DNA of 38,692 nt from a virus. Of the stretch, positions 5,448 to 16,176 are shown in pieces. The position numbers were made by a program, and so were the translations under genes. The DNA lies in IMG/VR virus record IMGVR_UViG_3300031825_000046, positions 1-38,692 of that record, one strand, 5' to 3'. The notes under the pieces are model-generated. The model did not search any database and was not told where the DNA came from. It saw only the letters and a list, made by a program, of their open reading frames with translations. Each line of letters begins with the position of its first letter. Within the stretch, counting starts at the first letter, position 1.

Positions 5448-5744
5448 TCACCCCGCCGATGTCAGCGAAGCCAATGCCGCCTGCTGCAACTCGGCAGGGC
5501 ACTTGAGCGCATGCCGGTCGCGCACCACCAGCCCCTGTGCGATGACGGCCAGGCATTCGGTGCGCACGGCCTCGCGCATGATGTGGCGACGCAACTCGAT
5601 CATCGTGCCCAGGTGGTAGCTTACATTGCTCGGATGCACATCGGCCTCCAGCGCAATCGCGTCACGGGTAATGTTGCGGTAGCCATGCTTGGCCGCCAGC
5701 TTGAGGCACGCCTTGAGGATGTGGGTGCGGGTGGTTTGTTTCAT
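5448..5744 (-). CDS. TetR-like helix-turn-helix DNA-binding protein (DNA-binding domain only)
   Basis: The start chosen is ATG 5744 (MKQTTRTHILKACLKLAAKH), with AGGA eight bases upstream, giving 98 residues; an ATG nine bases earlier is too close to the ribosome-binding site. The sequence follows the TetR N-terminal plan: an entry helix, GYRNITRDAIALEADV as the first HTH helices, and NVSYHLGTMIELRRHIM covering the recognition helix and the start of helix 4. Full TetR repressors have about 200 residues with a ligand-binding C-terminal domain; here only about 35 residues follow the DNA-binding region. It sits in the leftward early operon and is a candidate regulator of the phage early promoters (inference). 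Confidence 0.7.
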   Translation of the reverse strand: MKQTTRTHILKACLKLAAKHGYRNITRDAIALEADVHPSNVSYHLGTMIELRRHIMREAVRTECLAVIAQGLVVRDRHALKCPAELQQAALASLTSAG

Positions 5745-5757
5745 GACGATCATCCTA

Positions 5758-5967
5758 TCAGAGTTTTGACGGCGGCGTCAATCGCTTTAGGCTTGGGTCG
5801 GATTCGAGCGCCGGTTTCAAGCAATCCAAATGCACCCGATGCGTGTTGCCGATTGGATCGACAAGTTCCTCGAATTTGAAGCCACCGCCCTTTTTATAGA
5901 CAAGACGATTCAAGCAATGCCAGCACCGTGGATTGCCGTTAGCAAGTGCTTTTTGAGTGATTGTCAT
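5758..5967 (-). CDS. Small zinc-knuckle-like protein, 69 aa
   Basis: The start is ATG 5967, overlapping the VRR-NUC stop by four bases (ATGA); the longer upstream frame is shadow. The protein has CWHC near residue 15 and HLDC about 30 residues later, a CxxC...HxxC arrangement that could bind one zinc. The C-terminus is basic and Pro-rich. It is probably a small nucleic-acid or protein-binding factor of the replication operon; no specific function can be assigned. Confidence 0.7.
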   Translation of the reverse strand: MTITQKALANGNPRCWHCLNRLVYKKGGGFKFEELVDPIGNTHRVHLDCLKPALESDPSLKRLTPPSKL

Positions 5968-8687: not shown

Positions 8688-8716
8688 ATCATAAAAGTAT
8701 TTGACAAAGCCGTCAA
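8688..8716 (-). promoter_or_regulatory. Leftward early promoter (sigma70-type)
   Basis: On the minus strand TTGACG (8711-8716) is followed by a 17-bp spacer and TATGAT (8688-8693), each 5/6 to consensus. It drives the leftward block starting at 8661. Its -35 box lies inside the spacer of the rightward promoter, so the two cannot easily be occupied at once. Confidence 0.8.
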
Positions 8717-8729
8717 GTAGTGTAATACT
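8701..8729 (+). promoter_or_regulatory. Rightward early promoter (sigma70, extended -10)
   Basis: TTGACA (8701-8706) is perfect. After 17 bp comes AATACT (8724-8729), preceded by TGT, an extended -10. The predicted start is about 8736, exactly where the long RNA stem begins. TTGAC-AAAGCC-GTCAA (8701-8716) is a perfect inverted repeat that contains the -35 boxes of both divergent promoters and could be an operator. A near-copy of this promoter lies at 12001. Confidence 0.8.
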
Positions 8730-8735
8730 GTGACT

Positions 8736-8890
8736 CATGGCATCTATTGCTGCGCACCGGCCCTCGCTGCCATGGGGGTTCCAAAGCGAGACCTGGCAGG
8801 GTTGAGTGGCGGGAGACAGCGACAAACATCGACCGCCTTCCGGGTGGGCGAAAGTACCAACGATAGTGGTGCGTAGCAATAGATGCCATG
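8736..8890 (+). ncRNA. Structured leader / noncoding RNA with a 23-bp terminal stem
   Basis: Bases 8736-8758 pair with 8868-8890 over 23 consecutive base pairs, with one G-U wobble (8752/8874). Inside lie further helices: 8763-8768 with 8785-8790 (CTCGCT/AGCGAG), 8808-8812 with 8833-8837 (GGCGG/CCGCC), possibly 8801-8804 with 8858-8861 (GTTG/CAAC), and a GAAA tetraloop at 8850-8853. The 5' end matches the predicted transcription start of the rightward promoter. No convincing ORF lies inside and no U-tract follows, so transcription should continue into the gene at 8910. The long stem would suit RNase III processing (inference). It could be a cis-acting antitermination (put-like) leader, a processed sRNA or a 6S-like decoy. 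I cannot match it to a known RNA family. Confidence 0.6.
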
Positions 8891-8909
8891 AAACACAAGG
8901 GGCCACATC

Positions 8910-9332
8910 ATGAAAACCATTTATGCCGTAAATTCCGGCTGCTATTCTGACTATCATGTTGTCGCGCTGTTCTCATCAAAAGAGAAAGCGCAAGCGTTCA
9001 TGACGGCAGTGCCGGATGATGACTACAACGAAATCGAGGAATTCCAACTCGATCCGCCGACTGCGGATCTTATCCGTCGCGGTTATTGGCAATGGCATAT
9101 TCGCATGTTACGGGACGGAACTGTCGAACATGCCATGAAAGCTGACACCGCATGTTCTAGCTATACGCCTACGCCTTACCATGCGATATGGCGTCGTTCG
9201 CAAACTATGCATCCGCCGTACACGCGGCCTGATTGTTTGCAATCAACCGTCATGGCCAAAAACGAAAAGCACGCCATCAAGATCGCCAACGAGCACCGTG
9301 TGCAACTCATTGCAACTGGGCAATGGGATTAA
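8910..9332 (+). CDS. Hypothetical early protein, 140 aa
   Basis: The first protein of the rightward block. ATG 8910 is preceded by AAGGGG at a good distance. The N-terminus (MKTIYAVNSGCYSDYHVVALFSSKEKAQAFM) resembles small phage proteins with a beta-strand/helix pattern of the YxVxxGxYSDYxVxxxF type, which I recall only as uncharacterised. The C-terminal half is rich in His, Tyr and Pro. It directly follows the structured RNA, so its translation may depend on that leader. Confidence 0.75.
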   Translation: MKTIYAVNSGCYSDYHVVALFSSKEKAQAFMTAVPDDDYNEIEEFQLDPPTADLIRRGYWQWHIRMLRDGTVEHAMKADTACSSYTPTPYHAIWRRSQTMHPPYTRPDCLQSTVMAKNEKHAIKIANEHRVQLIATGQWD

Positions 9333-9368: not shown

Positions 9369-10400
9369 ATGCAACTCACCATTGATCTGAGCACCACCGA
9401 CGAAGCCGGTGCTCGCAAGGCCATCGCCATGATCCAGGCGTTCTATGGCATCGAATCCGACAAACACGCCGAAGATGACGCATATCGTCGTGGTATGCAG
9501 GCCGCACGCAACGCAACCGCAGCGGCCGCCGTGTCGAGCGTGCCCGCCCCTTTGGCCCAACCGGCAGCCACTGCCCCCTCTACTGTGGTTGTCGAGCCCA
9601 ATCAGATTGCCCCAGGGGTTCCGCAGGTTACTTCAATCTTGACACCCGCGCAGCCGGCCCCTGTTCTGCCCACCGTGCCCGCGGCGACTGCCCCCACGGC
9701 ACCTGCGGCCCCCACGACCCATGCAAGCGGCGTGGCGATTGACAAGGCTGGCTTGCCGTGGGACGCGCGCATTCACTCCAGTAGCAAGGCGATCAATGCT
9801 GACGGCACCTGGCGCAAGCGTAAGGGCCTCAACGACGAGGGCCTGGTCAAGCGCATCGAGGCCGAGTTGCTGGCCGCCATGGCGGTGCCTGTTGTTCGGG
9901 AAGAAACCGCGCAAGACTCTGCTGATTCATGGAACGCCGTGCTGGCTGCCCCTGTGGCTACACTGACTTATGATGATCCCCGCAGGTCTGTAACGATTCC
10001 GATTCCTACCGCGAATGGCGAGATGCCCGCTATTGTGCCGAGCATTCCCGCTCCGACGGAGGTGCCCGTTGTGGCCGTCCCTTTTACGGCACCACCCTTG
10101 CCGGCCGCCCCCAGCCAGGCGCCTGTCGTTACGATGCCGACCCCTCCTGTGGCGGCTTCTTCTGCGACCCCCACTGATGCTCCGGCAATCCCCACAGCGG
10201 CCCCCACCACGCTGGCTGAGTTGATGCCCCGCATCACTGGCGCCATGATGACCGGCGCGCTGCCTGGAACGGCCCTGCTCGATGTGGTCAAAGCGCCGCC
10301 GTTCGGCATCCCTGACCTGCCAACACTGGCCCACCGTCCCGACCTGATCCCGCAAGTGTGGTCGGTGCTGCAACAAACCTATCCGGGGGTGTTGGTGTGA
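9369..10400 (+). CDS. Pro/Ala/Thr-rich phage protein, 343 aa
   Basis: AAGGAG precedes the ATG. The N-terminal 45 residues form a short folded unit (MQLTIDLSTTDEAGARKAIAM...). Long low-complexity segments of Ala, Pro, Thr and Val flank a conserved-looking core near residues 115-160: KAGLPWDARIHSSSKAINAD, then GTWRKRKG. That core recurs in many phage early proteins of unknown function. The C-terminus (TLAELMPRITGAMM ... LIPQVWSVLQQTYPGVLV) is again ordered. The layout suggests small domains tethered by flexible linkers, perhaps bridging replication proteins (inference). Its stop overlaps the next start by four bases. Confidence 0.75.
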   Translation: MQLTIDLSTTDEAGARKAIAMIQAFYGIESDKHAEDDAYRRGMQAARNATAAAAVSSVPAPLAQPAATAPSTVVVEPNQIAPGVPQVTSILTPAQPAPVLPTVPAATAPTAPAAPTTHASGVAIDKAGLPWDARIHSSSKAINADGTWRKRKGLNDEGLVKRIEAELLAAMAVPVVREETAQDSADSWNAVLAAPVATLTYDDPRRSVTIPIPTANGEMPAIVPSIPAPTEVPVVAVPFTAPPLPAAPSQAPVVTMPTPPVAASSATPTDAPAIPTAAPTTLAELMPRITGAMMTGALPGTALLDVVKAPPFGIPDLPTLAHRPDLIPQVWSVLQQTYPGVLV

Positions 10401-10642: not shown

Positions 10643-11811
10643 GCGACGGCCAACACGCATTCCTCCCACCCAGCGCCGCACACCGTTGGCGGCGGTGCCC
10701 CGGTAGTCCTAAAATGGAAGCAGCACACCCTGATCTGGGCGACAAGCAAGAGGCCGAAGAAGGTAACGCTTGTCATTGGATCATGGCGCAAATGCTGACG
10801 CTCACAGCGCCCACTGTGGTTGCCGGTGCCGTGAGTCCGAACGGTATCACGGTGACGCAGCAGATGATCGACGGCGCGCGTATCTTTGCAGACGATGTGA
10901 TCGGAACGCTCGGTCCGTCATGGCCAGCCGTTGCCAAAGTCGAGCGCCGAGTGAAAATCCCCCGTGTGCATCCGACGCACAACTGGGGCACACCGGACTG
11001 CAAGGCGTGGTTCAATGAGCACCGTCTGCACATCTGGGACTTCAAATGGGGCTTCGGTGTAGTCGAGGTTTTTGAGAACGACCAGTTGATCGACTACGCG
11101 GCCGGTTGCCTGACGGAACAGAACGAACGGCGCGCTGCTGCCGGTCTGCAGGCCATCTCCGAGTCCGACATCGAGATCGTCATGCGCATCATCCAGCCCC
11201 GCGCCTTCCACCCGGACGGCGTAGTGCGGGAATGGCGTGTCAAGGCGACCGATCTGCGCGATCACATCTTTGCCCTGAGCATGGCGGCCGACGAGGCATG
11301 TGGCGACAACCCGCAGTGCAAACCGGTGGCGTCTGCCTGCGAAAACTGTTCGGCGCGGCATGCGTGTGAGGCGTTACAGCGCGCCAGTTACCAGGGCATG
11401 GACATCGCGCGTCGTGCTCACAGTATCGAGATGACGCCGCTGGCCATGGGCCTTGAGTTGCGCCTACTGCGTGAGGCACGCGGTCTGATCGAAGCACGCG
11501 AGAGCGGCCTTGAGCAGCAGGTCGAATCGCTGATTCGTAGCGGCCAGCGCGTGCCCCATTGGACGATGCGGCCAGGCCAATCCCGCGAGAAGTGGCTGGA
11601 AGGCAAGGATGTGGAAATCATTGCTGTCGGCCAGATGTACGGCGTGGATGTCGCCAAGCCGCCCGAGGCCGTTACGCCTGCCCAGGCCAAGGCAAAGGGC
11701 ATGCCCGCTGACATCGTGGCGGCCTACTCGATGCGCCCGCATGGCGTCATGAAACTCGCGGTCGATGACGGCAGCGATGCGCGTATGGTGTTTGGCAGGA
11801 GTACGACATGA
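10639..11811 (+). CDS. DUF2800-family RecB-like nuclease
   Basis: A 390-residue protein matching the DUF2800 plan. An N-terminal LPPSAAHRWRRCPGS segment binds the fold. E40-E41 and H46 follow, then GTPDCKAWFN with its Asp, and HIWDFKWGFGVVEV, the D-x-K of the PD-(D/E)XK nuclease core (residues about 131-136). NDQLIDYA supplies the QxxxY-like helix. A Cys cluster (CENCSARHACEAL, about residues 234-246) is typical of RecB-like nucleases with an Fe-S or zinc site. Such proteins degrade or trim DNA ends and pair with DUF2815 ssDNA-binding proteins in phage replication modules, as here. Both ends overlap neighbours by four bases. Confidence 0.85.
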   Translation: MSDGQHAFLPPSAAHRWRRCPGSPKMEAAHPDLGDKQEAEEGNACHWIMAQMLTLTAPTVVAGAVSPNGITVTQQMIDGARIFADDVIGTLGPSWPAVAKVERRVKIPRVHPTHNWGTPDCKAWFNEHRLHIWDFKWGFGVVEVFENDQLIDYAAGCLTEQNERRAAAGLQAISESDIEIVMRIIQPRAFHPDGVVREWRVKATDLRDHIFALSMAADEACGDNPQCKPVASACENCSARHACEALQRASYQGMDIARRAHSIEMTPLAMGLELRLLREARGLIEARESGLEQQVESLIRSGQRVPHWTMRPGQSREKWLEGKDVEIIAVGQMYGVDVAKPPEAVTPAQAKAKGMPADIVAAYSMRPHGVMKLAVDDGSDARMVFGRSTT

Positions 11812-12053
11812 ATCAGGTATGGGTGATCGCCAAAAAGCAAAACGAAACCTATGGTCATGGTGATTTCGGAACCAGTCTGAAATTGCCGCGACTTGGACCT
11901 TACGACACCGGAAACTTCCATCCGTACTTTGATACCGAGGCCGACGCGACAGCGTACATCGAGTCACTGCAATTTCATTACGATCTTGTTGCCGTGCCGC
12001 TTGACAAAGCCGTAATACCGTGTAATACTGTAAATTCAACCAACCTGGAGTAA
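11808..12053 (+). CDS. Hypothetical protein, 81 aa
   Basis: I do not recognise this protein. It begins MNQVWVIAKKQNETYGHG and looks like a small alpha/beta domain. The start overlaps the nuclease stop (ATGA). Its last 18 codons carry the second early promoter (12001-12029), so the C-terminal sequence (DKAVIPCNTVNSTNLE) is probably constrained more by promoter than by protein function. Confidence 0.7.
   Translation: MNQVWVIAKKQNETYGHGDFGTSLKLPRLGPYDTGNFHPYFDTEADATAYIESLQFHYDLVAVPLDKAVIPCNTVNSTNLE
12001..12029 (+). promoter_or_regulatory. Second rightward early promoter with tandem GTAATAC boxes
   Basis: TTGACA (12001-12006), a 17-bp spacer and AATACT (12024-12029) preceded by TGT. The first 13 bases and the block GTGTAATACTGT are identical to the promoter at 8701; only six bases between them differ. 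GTAATAC occurs at 12012-12018 and 12022-12028, one helical turn apart, covering spacer and -10. It would drive the SSB and polymerase genes independently of the first promoter. Confidence 0.75.
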
Positions 12054-13460: not shown

Positions 13461-14543
13461 GTGACCTTCATCCCCCCACCGCCCCCGCCAGCCGCAAAGC
13501 CAGTGTTGATGCTCGACACCGAGTGTTACCAAAACTACTGGCTTTGCGCGTTTGACGACGGCACGTACTTTGAGATGACCGAGACCCAGCCGCTGGATGT
13601 GGCTGGGTTGGCGGCCAAGCTGCGTACCTGCAAAATCGTCACCTTCAACGGCAACGGCTATGACATGCCGATAATTTGCCTGGCACTGCAGGGCGCCACC
13701 ACATACGACCTCAAGGCTGCGAGCAATCGCATCATCGTGGATGGCGTGAAGCCTTGGGATATTTGCCGCGTGTTCGATTGGATCGACCACATCGACTTGA
13801 TAGAGGTGAAGCCTGGCCAGGGCTCGCTCAAGGCCTACGGCGGCAAGATGCACTCGCGCAAACTGCAGGACTTGCCGATTGAGCCGGATGCGTGGATCAC
13901 CGATGACCAGCGCGAGGTGCTGCGCGCATACTGCTTCAACGATCTGGTGACTACGCGCGATCTCTATGACGCCATGCAGACGCAGCTTGCTCTGCGAGTT
14001 GACATGAGCGCCGAGTACGGCGTGGACCTGCGCAGCAAGAGCGATGCGCAGATTGCCGAGGCTGCCATGCGCCAGGTGCTCGGCTTCAAGCCCGTAGCGC
14101 CCTATATTGCCCCCGGAACACAGTTTTATTACCGCCCGCCCCCGTGGATGCGGTTTGTGAACCAGCCGCTTTTGGAGATGCTGGAGCAAAACCCCTTCAC
14201 CATCACACAGGCAGGCGGTGTGCAGATGACCGACACCCTCGCCAACACCGTCATTCGCATCGGCGGCACGGCGTACAAGATGGGCATCGGCGGGCTGCAT
14301 AGCATGGAGAGTTGCATCTGCCATGTGACCGATGAGGCGCATGAGATCGGGGATTGGGATGTCAACTCCTACTACCCAAATTTGATATTGAATACTGGCA
14401 TCTACCCGCAGCAGATTGGCCCTCGATTCTCGGAGGTGTACCGGGGGTGGATTGACACGCGGCTAAAAGCAAAGCATCGTGCGTCCGAATTGAAAGCGGA
14501 AATCAAGACACTTAAAGCCAAGATTGCGTCTTTGCCAAAATGA
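13461..14543 (+). CDS. Family B DNA polymerase, N-terminal half (exonuclease + palm motif A)
   Basis: A 360-residue first half of a split DNA polymerase. The start is GTG 13461 with a weak ribosome-binding site. A Pro-rich leader is followed by the proofreading exonuclease: Exo I LDTECYQ (D19, E21), Exo II FNGNGYD (N63, D68) and Exo III YCFND (Y157, D161). Palm motif A is DVNSYYPNL (300-308), preceded by GIGGLHS (275-281), typical of phage polymerases of this group. The chain ends 55 residues later in a charged helix (RASELKAEIKTLKAKIASLPK) and a TGA. Motifs B and C are missing; they lie in the gene at 15220. An HNH-AP2 gene separates the halves. Intact homologues would continue directly into the fingers. 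Confidence 0.9.
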   Translation: MTFIPPPPPPAAKPVLMLDTECYQNYWLCAFDDGTYFEMTETQPLDVAGLAAKLRTCKIVTFNGNGYDMPIICLALQGATTYDLKAASNRIIVDGVKPWDICRVFDWIDHIDLIEVKPGQGSLKAYGGKMHSRKLQDLPIEPDAWITDDQREVLRAYCFNDLVTTRDLYDAMQTQLALRVDMSAEYGVDLRSKSDAQIAEAAMRQVLGFKPVAPYIAPGTQFYYRPPPWMRFVNQPLLEMLEQNPFTITQAGGVQMTDTLANTVIRIGGTAYKMGIGGLHSMESCICHVTDEAHEIGDWDVNSYYPNLILNTGIYPQQIGPRFSEVYRGWIDTRLKAKHRASELKAEIKTLKAKIASLPK

Positions 14544-14552
14544 CCGTATAAT
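14524..14552 (+). promoter_or_regulatory. Promoter of the inserted HNH-AP2 gene (near-leaderless)
   Basis: TTGCGT (14524-14529), a 17-bp spacer and a perfect TATAAT (14547-14552). The predicted start, about 14559, is one or two bases before the HNH ATG at 14561, and no ribosome-binding site precedes that ATG. This would produce a leaderless or nearly leaderless mRNA. The -35 lies inside the last codons of the upstream polymerase half. Confidence 0.6.
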
Positions 14553-14560
14553 TCAAACTT

Positions 14561-15238
14561 ATGGCAAAATATAGACGCGACACCCCGTACCACAAGCGGT
14601 TTAAGCCGGTGCATGAGTTCATCGTGTCCACGCACCCGCTTTATCAAGTGTGGAACAACATGATTGGGCGTTGTTGCAATCCCGATAACGGTAACTACGC
14701 AAACTACGGAGGACGTGGGATCGCTGTGTGTGCCGATTGGCGGCATTCGTTTGAGCGGTTCGCGCTTGACATGGGCATGCCGCCGTCCGACCTACATTCG
14801 CTGGACAGGATCAATAATGAGTTGAGCTACTGCAAGGAGAACTGCCGATGGGCGTCCCGTTCCGAGCAGATGCACAACCGGCGCAAATTCAAGTCAAACA
14901 CGACTGGATTTACTGGCGTCGTTGCCGCAAAGAACGGGCGGTTTTCGGCGCGGTATGACGACGACAAAGACCGATACCGCCTCGGTAACTTTGGCAGTGC
15001 GCAAGAGGCTGCCGCGTATCGGGACATCTTTATCGCAATACTGGCGATAGACAAAGAGGCGGCTATGCTGATGACGGAACGCCGTGCACGATACGACAGC
15101 GCCACGGGCGTTCGTGGCATCTCAGCGCATTCCGATGGCGGGTTCATTGTGCGCAAGACAATCGGCGGTGTGCGTAAGTACCTTGGTTACAGAAAAACAT
15201 TCGATGAGGCGCTGGAGCTATGGAGCGAGCACAATTAG
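14561..15238 (+). CDS. HNH homing endonuclease with AP2-like DNA-binding repeats
   Basis: A 225-residue protein. The N-terminal HNH domain follows the phage pattern: HPLYQVWNNMIGRCCNP (25-41), YGGRGIAVCADW (49-60), F..DMGMPP, LDRINNELSYCKENCRWAS (81-99) and EQMHNRR (102-108). Two AP2-like beta modules follow: NTTGFTGVVAAKNGRFSARY (113-132) with LGNFGSAQEAAAYRD, and SATGVRGISAHSDGGFIVRK (180-199) with LGYRKTFDEALELW. AP2 repeats give long target-site recognition in homing enzymes. The gene interrupts the DNA polymerase gene and its 3' end overlaps the start of the second half by 19 bases. No intron core could fit around it, so it is a free-standing homing endonuclease that split its host gene. 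Confidence 0.9.
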   Translation: MAKYRRDTPYHKRFKPVHEFIVSTHPLYQVWNNMIGRCCNPDNGNYANYGGRGIAVCADWRHSFERFALDMGMPPSDLHSLDRINNELSYCKENCRWASRSEQMHNRRKFKSNTTGFTGVVAAKNGRFSARYDDDKDRYRLGNFGSAQEAAAYRDIFIAILAIDKEAAMLMTERRARYDSATGVRGISAHSDGGFIVRKTIGGVRKYLGYRKTFDEALELWSEHN

Positions 15239-16176
15239 AGTCGCGCTTGGCAGAACTTGAGCGCGAGTTTTCCCGCGAGAAGCGGGTGGCCGATAGCTAT
15301 AAAATTTTGGCAAACGGCACCTTTGGCAAGCTGGGCAACGTGTGGTCGATCTTCTACGCCCCGAGCGAGATGATCCAAGTGACCGTGACTGGCCAACTGG
15401 CGCTGCTCATGCTGATCGAAATGCTGGAGATGTGCGGTATCAGCGTCATCTCGGCCAACACAGACGGCATCATCCTCAAGACGCCCCGTGCGCTGGCCGC
15501 CCAACGTGACTCTATCTTGCGCTGGTGGGAAGCGACCACGGGGTTCGAGACTGAGCGCACGGACTACCGGCTGCTGGCCCAGGCTGACGTGAATACCTAT
15601 TGCGCCATCCAGCCAGACGGCACAGTGAAGCTCAAGGGCCGGCTGGCGCCGCCCGAGCCAGGACCCAGCGGCTGGCCCAACCCCACCGGGCAGGTTTGCG
15701 TGGACGCCGTAGTGGCCTACCTACGCGACGGTATGCCCCTGGAGGAAACGATCTACAACTGCACCGACATCCGGCAGTTTCTGCATGTGCGCGCCGTCAA
15801 GGGCGGTGGATCATGGTGCCCTGACGGTCATCTGCCACCGAGCAGCAAGGTGACGCAGAAGTTCATGCGTGAGCGCCTGGGCGGCGGGCCGTGGTTCGGC
15901 ACGCCCAAAGACGCCGTAATCGCCGCCTATGACGATCTGGTGGCCCGCAATGATGCCAAGCGCCAGTATCTGGGTAAGGTGGTGCGCTGGTACTATGCGC
16001 TGGCCTGCCGTGGCGCTATCGTGACGCCCACAGGTGGGCAGGTGGCCAAGGCCGAGGGCGTGCGCCCGCTCATGGAATTGCCGGACGTGATGCCGACCGA
16101 TGTGAACCGCAGCAAGTACGTCGAGGATGCTCGGGCAATGCTGGCTGAGATTGGAGTTCGATATGACCGCTTATGA
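15220..16176 (+). CDS. Family B DNA polymerase, C-terminal half (motifs B and C)
   Basis: A 318-residue second half of the polymerase. ATG 15220 lies inside the HNH gene, with GAGG ten bases upstream, so it has its own initiation signal. It opens with a charged helix (RAQLESRLAELEREFSREKR), then motif B YKILANGTFGKLG (K28, N32, F35-G36) and motif C SANTDGIIL (D82 retained; Asn where most family B enzymes have the first Asp). The remaining 230 residues form the rest of palm and thumb. The reading frame differs from the first half, so the two must work as separate subunits. The helices flanking the break could pair to rejoin the fingers (inference). Confidence 0.9.
   Translation: MERAQLESRLAELEREFSREKRVADSYKILANGTFGKLGNVWSIFYAPSEMIQVTVTGQLALLMLIEMLEMCGISVISANTDGIILKTPRALAAQRDSILRWWEATTGFETERTDYRLLAQADVNTYCAIQPDGTVKLKGRLAPPEPGPSGWPNPTGQVCVDAVVAYLRDGMPLEETIYNCTDIRQFLHVRAVKGGGSWCPDGHLPPSSKVTQKFMRERLGGGPWFGTPKDAVIAAYDDLVARNDAKRQYLGKVVRWYYALACRGAIVTPTGGQVAKAEGVRPLMELPDVMPTDVNRSKYVEDARAMLAEIGVRYDRL

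Follow-up and report, generated by a model that had tools for sequence, protein, structure and literature searches.

The window, the whole stretch of DNA analysed here, comprises the 38,692 nucleotides of IMG/VR virus record IMGVR_UViG_3300031825_000046 and represents a siphovirus-like phage, with genes for terminase, major head, tape measure and tail proteins. Its replication genes are arranged in two divergent operons, with primase and helicase encoded leftward and exonuclease, annealing protein and DNA polymerase encoded rightward; the ORFs scanned included no recognisable integrase or recombinase gene, and the phage is lytic-looking. The DNA polymerase gene is divided between two ORFs (13461-14543 and 15220-16176, both phrog_1252), which are split by an HNH endonuclease ORF (14561-15238). 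No group I intron was recognised by Rfam in this region (13461-16176), indicating either that the endonuclease was inserted without an intron or that an unrecognised intron is present. A sub-threshold match to the DicF RNA within the HNH ORF (14725-14785; 21 bits, gathering score 48, E = 0.06) is probably a chance match.

The rightward early operon opens with an element of about 155 nt (8736-8890) bounded by the two arms of a long stem (Table 1). Since the sigma-70 promoter TTGACA-17-AATACT ends at 8729, the predicted +1 falls at about 8736, the first base of the stem, as the sequence-only reading had proposed for this strong promoter; its further observation that the element contains no credible ORF was likewise borne out. 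The last base of the stem is 8890, and the start codon of the first gene lies at 8910, so that the hairpin sits exactly between the predicted +1 and the Shine-Dalgarno sequence. No sigma-70-like promoter driving the opposite strand into the element was seen. A second copy of the promoter (12001-12031), 84% identical over 31 nt and with no hairpin behind it, lies inside the end of an 81-aa ORF (11808-12053), upstream of the gene for the Gp2.5-like annealing protein.

Table 1. Features of the early promoter region, the hairpin and the two genes behind it (positions in the window).
Feature	Position	Strand	Remarks
Palindrome TTGAC-N6-GTCAA	8701..8716	.	overlies the divergent promoters' -35 boxes; putative operator, kept in relatives
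Rightward early promoter	8701..8731	+	TTGACA, 17 nt, AATACT, extended -10
5' arm of 23-bp terminal stem	8736..8758	+	begins at predicted +1
Inner 109 nt	8759..8867	+	folding not better than that of shuffles; homologue not found
3' arm of terminal stem	8868..8890	+
Ribosome-binding site AAGGGG	8897..8902	+	just past the stem
First gene behind the hairpin	8910..9332	+	140 aa, N-terminal DUF7336 (PF24024, phrog_3002)
343-aa gene (phrog_11133)	9369..10400	+	homologue directly behind the promoter in many relatives

Comparison of 66 regions, from the window and 65 relatives, found the palindrome with at most one mismatch in 26 of them, whereas shuffles would give about 0.9; its carriers include L018, L020, L021, L023, L024, L027, L029, L030, L039, L054, L061 and L085. 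A second exact copy is located at 5766-5781, just upstream of a TetR-like HTH ORF (5448-5753, minus strand). This pattern suggests a conserved phage operator together with an autoregulated TetR-type early repressor. This putative palindromic operator over the early promoter, conserved within the phage group, is the more general result of the analysis.

The terminal stem itself is genuine and beyond chance. Bases 8736-8758 pair with 8868-8890 on the plus strand in 23 unbroken pairs including one G-U, in full agreement with the initial description, or in 25 pairs if 8735:8891 and 8759:8867 are included, and the pairing probability of the stem is 0.99. Among the short-range inverted repeats of the window it ranks first. 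A score that rewards Watson-Crick pairs and penalises G-U pairs and mismatches gives it 57, whereas 200 dinucleotide shuffles of the window had a median of 33 and peaked at 46 (fitted P ~3 × 10−5); across 947,565 bases of DNA from related phages, the best stem scored 44. Counting G-U fully narrowed the contrast to 25 pairs, compared with 13-22 across 60 shuffles. The single imperfect pair is G-U on the plus strand and therefore pairs in the plus transcript, whereas the minus transcript would carry A·C at this position, which mildly favours a rightward transcript. At the DNA level, the inverted repeat resumes after a 2-nt mismatch as TGTG/CACA (8729-8732/8894-8897), extending to 30 nt at 90% and reaching past +1 into the promoter; this extension is not needed by a purely RNA-level role and counts against an RNA-only origin.

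The enclosed region presents a different picture. The whole element has a folding z of -6.2, as has its complementary strand because an inverted repeat can pair on either strand, whereas the inner 109 nt alone gave z values of +0.79 (plus strand) and -0.44 (minus strand) against shuffles. The sequence-only reading had pointed to several GC-rich inner helices and a GAAA tetraloop. The GAAA loop is present in the minimum-energy fold, with its two short stacks at a probability of about 0.35-0.4, but the inner structure proved to be nothing special: mean pair probabilities of the inner helices were 0.16-0.67, compared with 0.99 for the terminal stem, and these helices are what any G+C-rich sequence of equal length shows. 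The predicted interior is multibranched and ill-defined, and it shows no sign of selection for structure.

Searches for homologues of the element gave uniformly negative results. The covariance search against Rfam 15 yielded no match in the window at the gathering score, and at a relaxed E-value the best sub-threshold match had E = 2.1, consistent with the original impression that the element fits no recognised RNA family. That best match aligns part of the interior weakly with RF03044 (Proteo-phage-1) at 16 bits against a gathering score of 42; it lies so far under the threshold that we regard it as a chance match and reject membership. The P4 ash/CI immunity RNA locus was also considered and rejected, as PF10554 had no match and tblastn of the read-through frame returned only chance-level hits. 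No meaningful match was obtained by blastn of the element in 50,697 phage and 72,556 plasmid records or in E. coli genomes, and 36 related phage records contained only a 24-nt match at 88%, which is at chance level. In IMG/VR, no exact match was obtained to the promoter, to either arm or to three stretches of the interior, and a scan of genome contigs gave only one 6-kb MAG contig; these collections may omit records very near the window's own genome, so the absence of sister copies from them is not proof of uniqueness.

We also compared the locus with its relatives. The annealing protein has counterparts at 39-62% identity on eighty IMG/VR contigs, and the gene order helicase (minus strand), phrog_11133, DUF2800 exonuclease and annealing protein is kept in almost all contigs with enough flank. 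In several of the closest relatives (for example L018, L020, L021, L023 and L030) the divergent region has the same promoter architecture, with about 30 nt of leader between the promoter and the phrog_11133 gene, which comes next. None of the relatives' loci scanned contains a comparable closing stem without interruptions; the folds of some contain long interrupted stems, mostly within coding sequence. One relative, L024, has a different extra ORF at the same site, indicating that the site tolerates insertions. The DUF7336 gene has a G+C content of 50%, compared with 59% for the window, and is absent from 32 related phage records; a protein-based search with the 140-aa product returned no useful relatives, and the fold prediction (mean pLDDT 46) was too poor for use. 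At the head of the rightward operon this gene is probably a recent cargo. Because the hairpin and the low-G+C gene are both missing from the relatives, they look like one private cargo unit, which appears to have been inserted between the old promoter and the old phrog_11133 gene.

The explanation that we favour, to which we tentatively give somewhat below an even chance, is that the element is the 5'-leader hairpin of this cargo gene, serving as a shield of the mRNA, as an RNase III site, or as both. The argument is built on the stem, on its position downstream of the promoter and ahead of the ribosome-binding site, and on its absence from the syntenic relatives examined. The conserved early promoter would produce a rightward early message, transcribed from about 8736, which opens with the 23-bp hairpin, and the hairpin would end right before the ribosome-binding site of the DUF7336 gene. 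Bacterial mRNAs are stabilised by 5'-terminal stem-loops, and an uncut hairpin would act as such a stem-loop, slowing the decay of the message. RNase III, for its part, cuts perfect duplexes of about two turns; the 23 pairs form a continuous duplex of about two helical turns, and the early suggestion that the length of the stem suits this enzyme therefore holds. A cut within the stem would shorten the leader ahead of the gene to about 30 nt, about the leader length of the relatives, and either fate of the hairpin may change the expression of the gene downstream. That the leader might sequester the ribosome-binding site was considered as a further mode of action and rejected, as the predicted accessibility of the site did not differ consistently between the intact and the cut leader; a translational switch is thus not supported.

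The principal competitor places the origin of the repeat in the DNA. Here the element would be what is left of a small mobile element, or some other DNA site with inverted repeats (a MITE, an invertible segment or a binding site), lying in the leader, and the RNA hairpin would be incidental. The reach of the 30-nt repeat past the predicted +1 into the promoter fits this explanation, as do the unstructured interior and the lack of the element in the relatives examined; any tolerated insertion would, moreover, have to fall between promoter and ribosome-binding site. It is opposed by the failure to find a second copy in the window or, apart from the 24-nt chance-level match, in any of the related, phage, plasmid and E. 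coli sequences searched, by the absence of the exact arm patterns from IMG/VR, by the absence of any target-site duplication beyond a 3-nt chance match, and by the lack of a recognised recombinase gene among the ORFs scanned. The sequence-only reading had itself named a transposable MITE copied at unrelated sites as the finding that would overturn it; neither copies nor a target-site duplication came to light, with E. coli as the only bacterial chromosomes covered. We consider a DNA-level origin unlikely, though it is the likeliest of the rivals.

A little less probable again is that RNase III excises a separate phage small RNA of about 155 nt, which acts in trans by antisense pairing or protein binding. 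A closed, stable hairpin placed at the early promoter, with no ORF and no Rfam match, is what such an RNA would look like, but no terminator lies directly past the stem, the interior has neither stable structure nor a detectable homologue, and no long complementary partner of the interior stood out within the phage among the repeats listed. A related and slightly more doubtful proposal is that the element belongs to an undescribed phage RNA family, that is, an early RNA working in trans or in cis, with a 23-bp closing stem, excised by RNase III and carried with the DUF7336 gene as a cargo unit, whose sister copies lie outside the collections searched.

The sequence-only reading had also entertained a cis-acting antitermination leader that modifies RNA polymerase in the manner of a put RNA, an idea that the analysis did not support and that we now consider very improbable. 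The put RNA of phage HK022 is about 70 nt long, forms two stem-loops and binds the zinc-binding domain of the RNA polymerase beta' subunit (PMC9378689). Through this domain, put suppresses both termination and pausing. The element has in common with putL of HK022 its position, structured RNA immediately past a phage early promoter (promoter 8701-8729, stem from 8736), which is the one point in favour of this explanation (PMC9378689). The architecture differs, however, as about 155 nt are organised into a single 23-bp stem around 109 nt of ill-defined fold in place of two stem-loops within about 70 nt. No boxA-like site with two or fewer mismatches was found, terminator-like sites close downstream of the element were no more frequent than expected by chance, and the relatives run the same operon off the same promoter without the hairpin. 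The least probable of the explanations to which we assigned a likelihood is that the divergent early region has here a structure serving as replication origin or primer: the element does lie between the divergent replication operons, but relatives with the same replication genes do without it, making an essential origin here unlikely, and no iterons were seen. A mimic of 6S RNA, which is a long, nearly unbranched hairpin with a central bubble, was rejected in view of the multibranched interior and the absence of an Rfam 6S match.

If the element is a processed leader, it would represent a compact natural device that combines a strong 5' hairpin with a short mature leader for a cargo gene, and it would allow a clean test of the way in which phages accommodate cargo genes downstream of a conserved early promoter. 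So far it is a single, unreplicated case, and as an orphan hairpin leader it is best filed as another case of the structured 5' leader, a known kind. In their familiar features, the RNase III-sensitive leader of lambda N and the early processing sites of T7 share with the element a long 5' duplex of an early message upstream of the ribosome-binding site. They differ from it in that no sequence similarity was found and no boxA is found here, and cleavage of the element is a prediction. The ompA leader, whose 5' stem-loop stabilises its mRNA, shares the hairpin at the extreme 5' end, ending before the Shine-Dalgarno sequence; in our element the stem is much longer and the enclosed region larger, and any effect on half-life is a predicted one.
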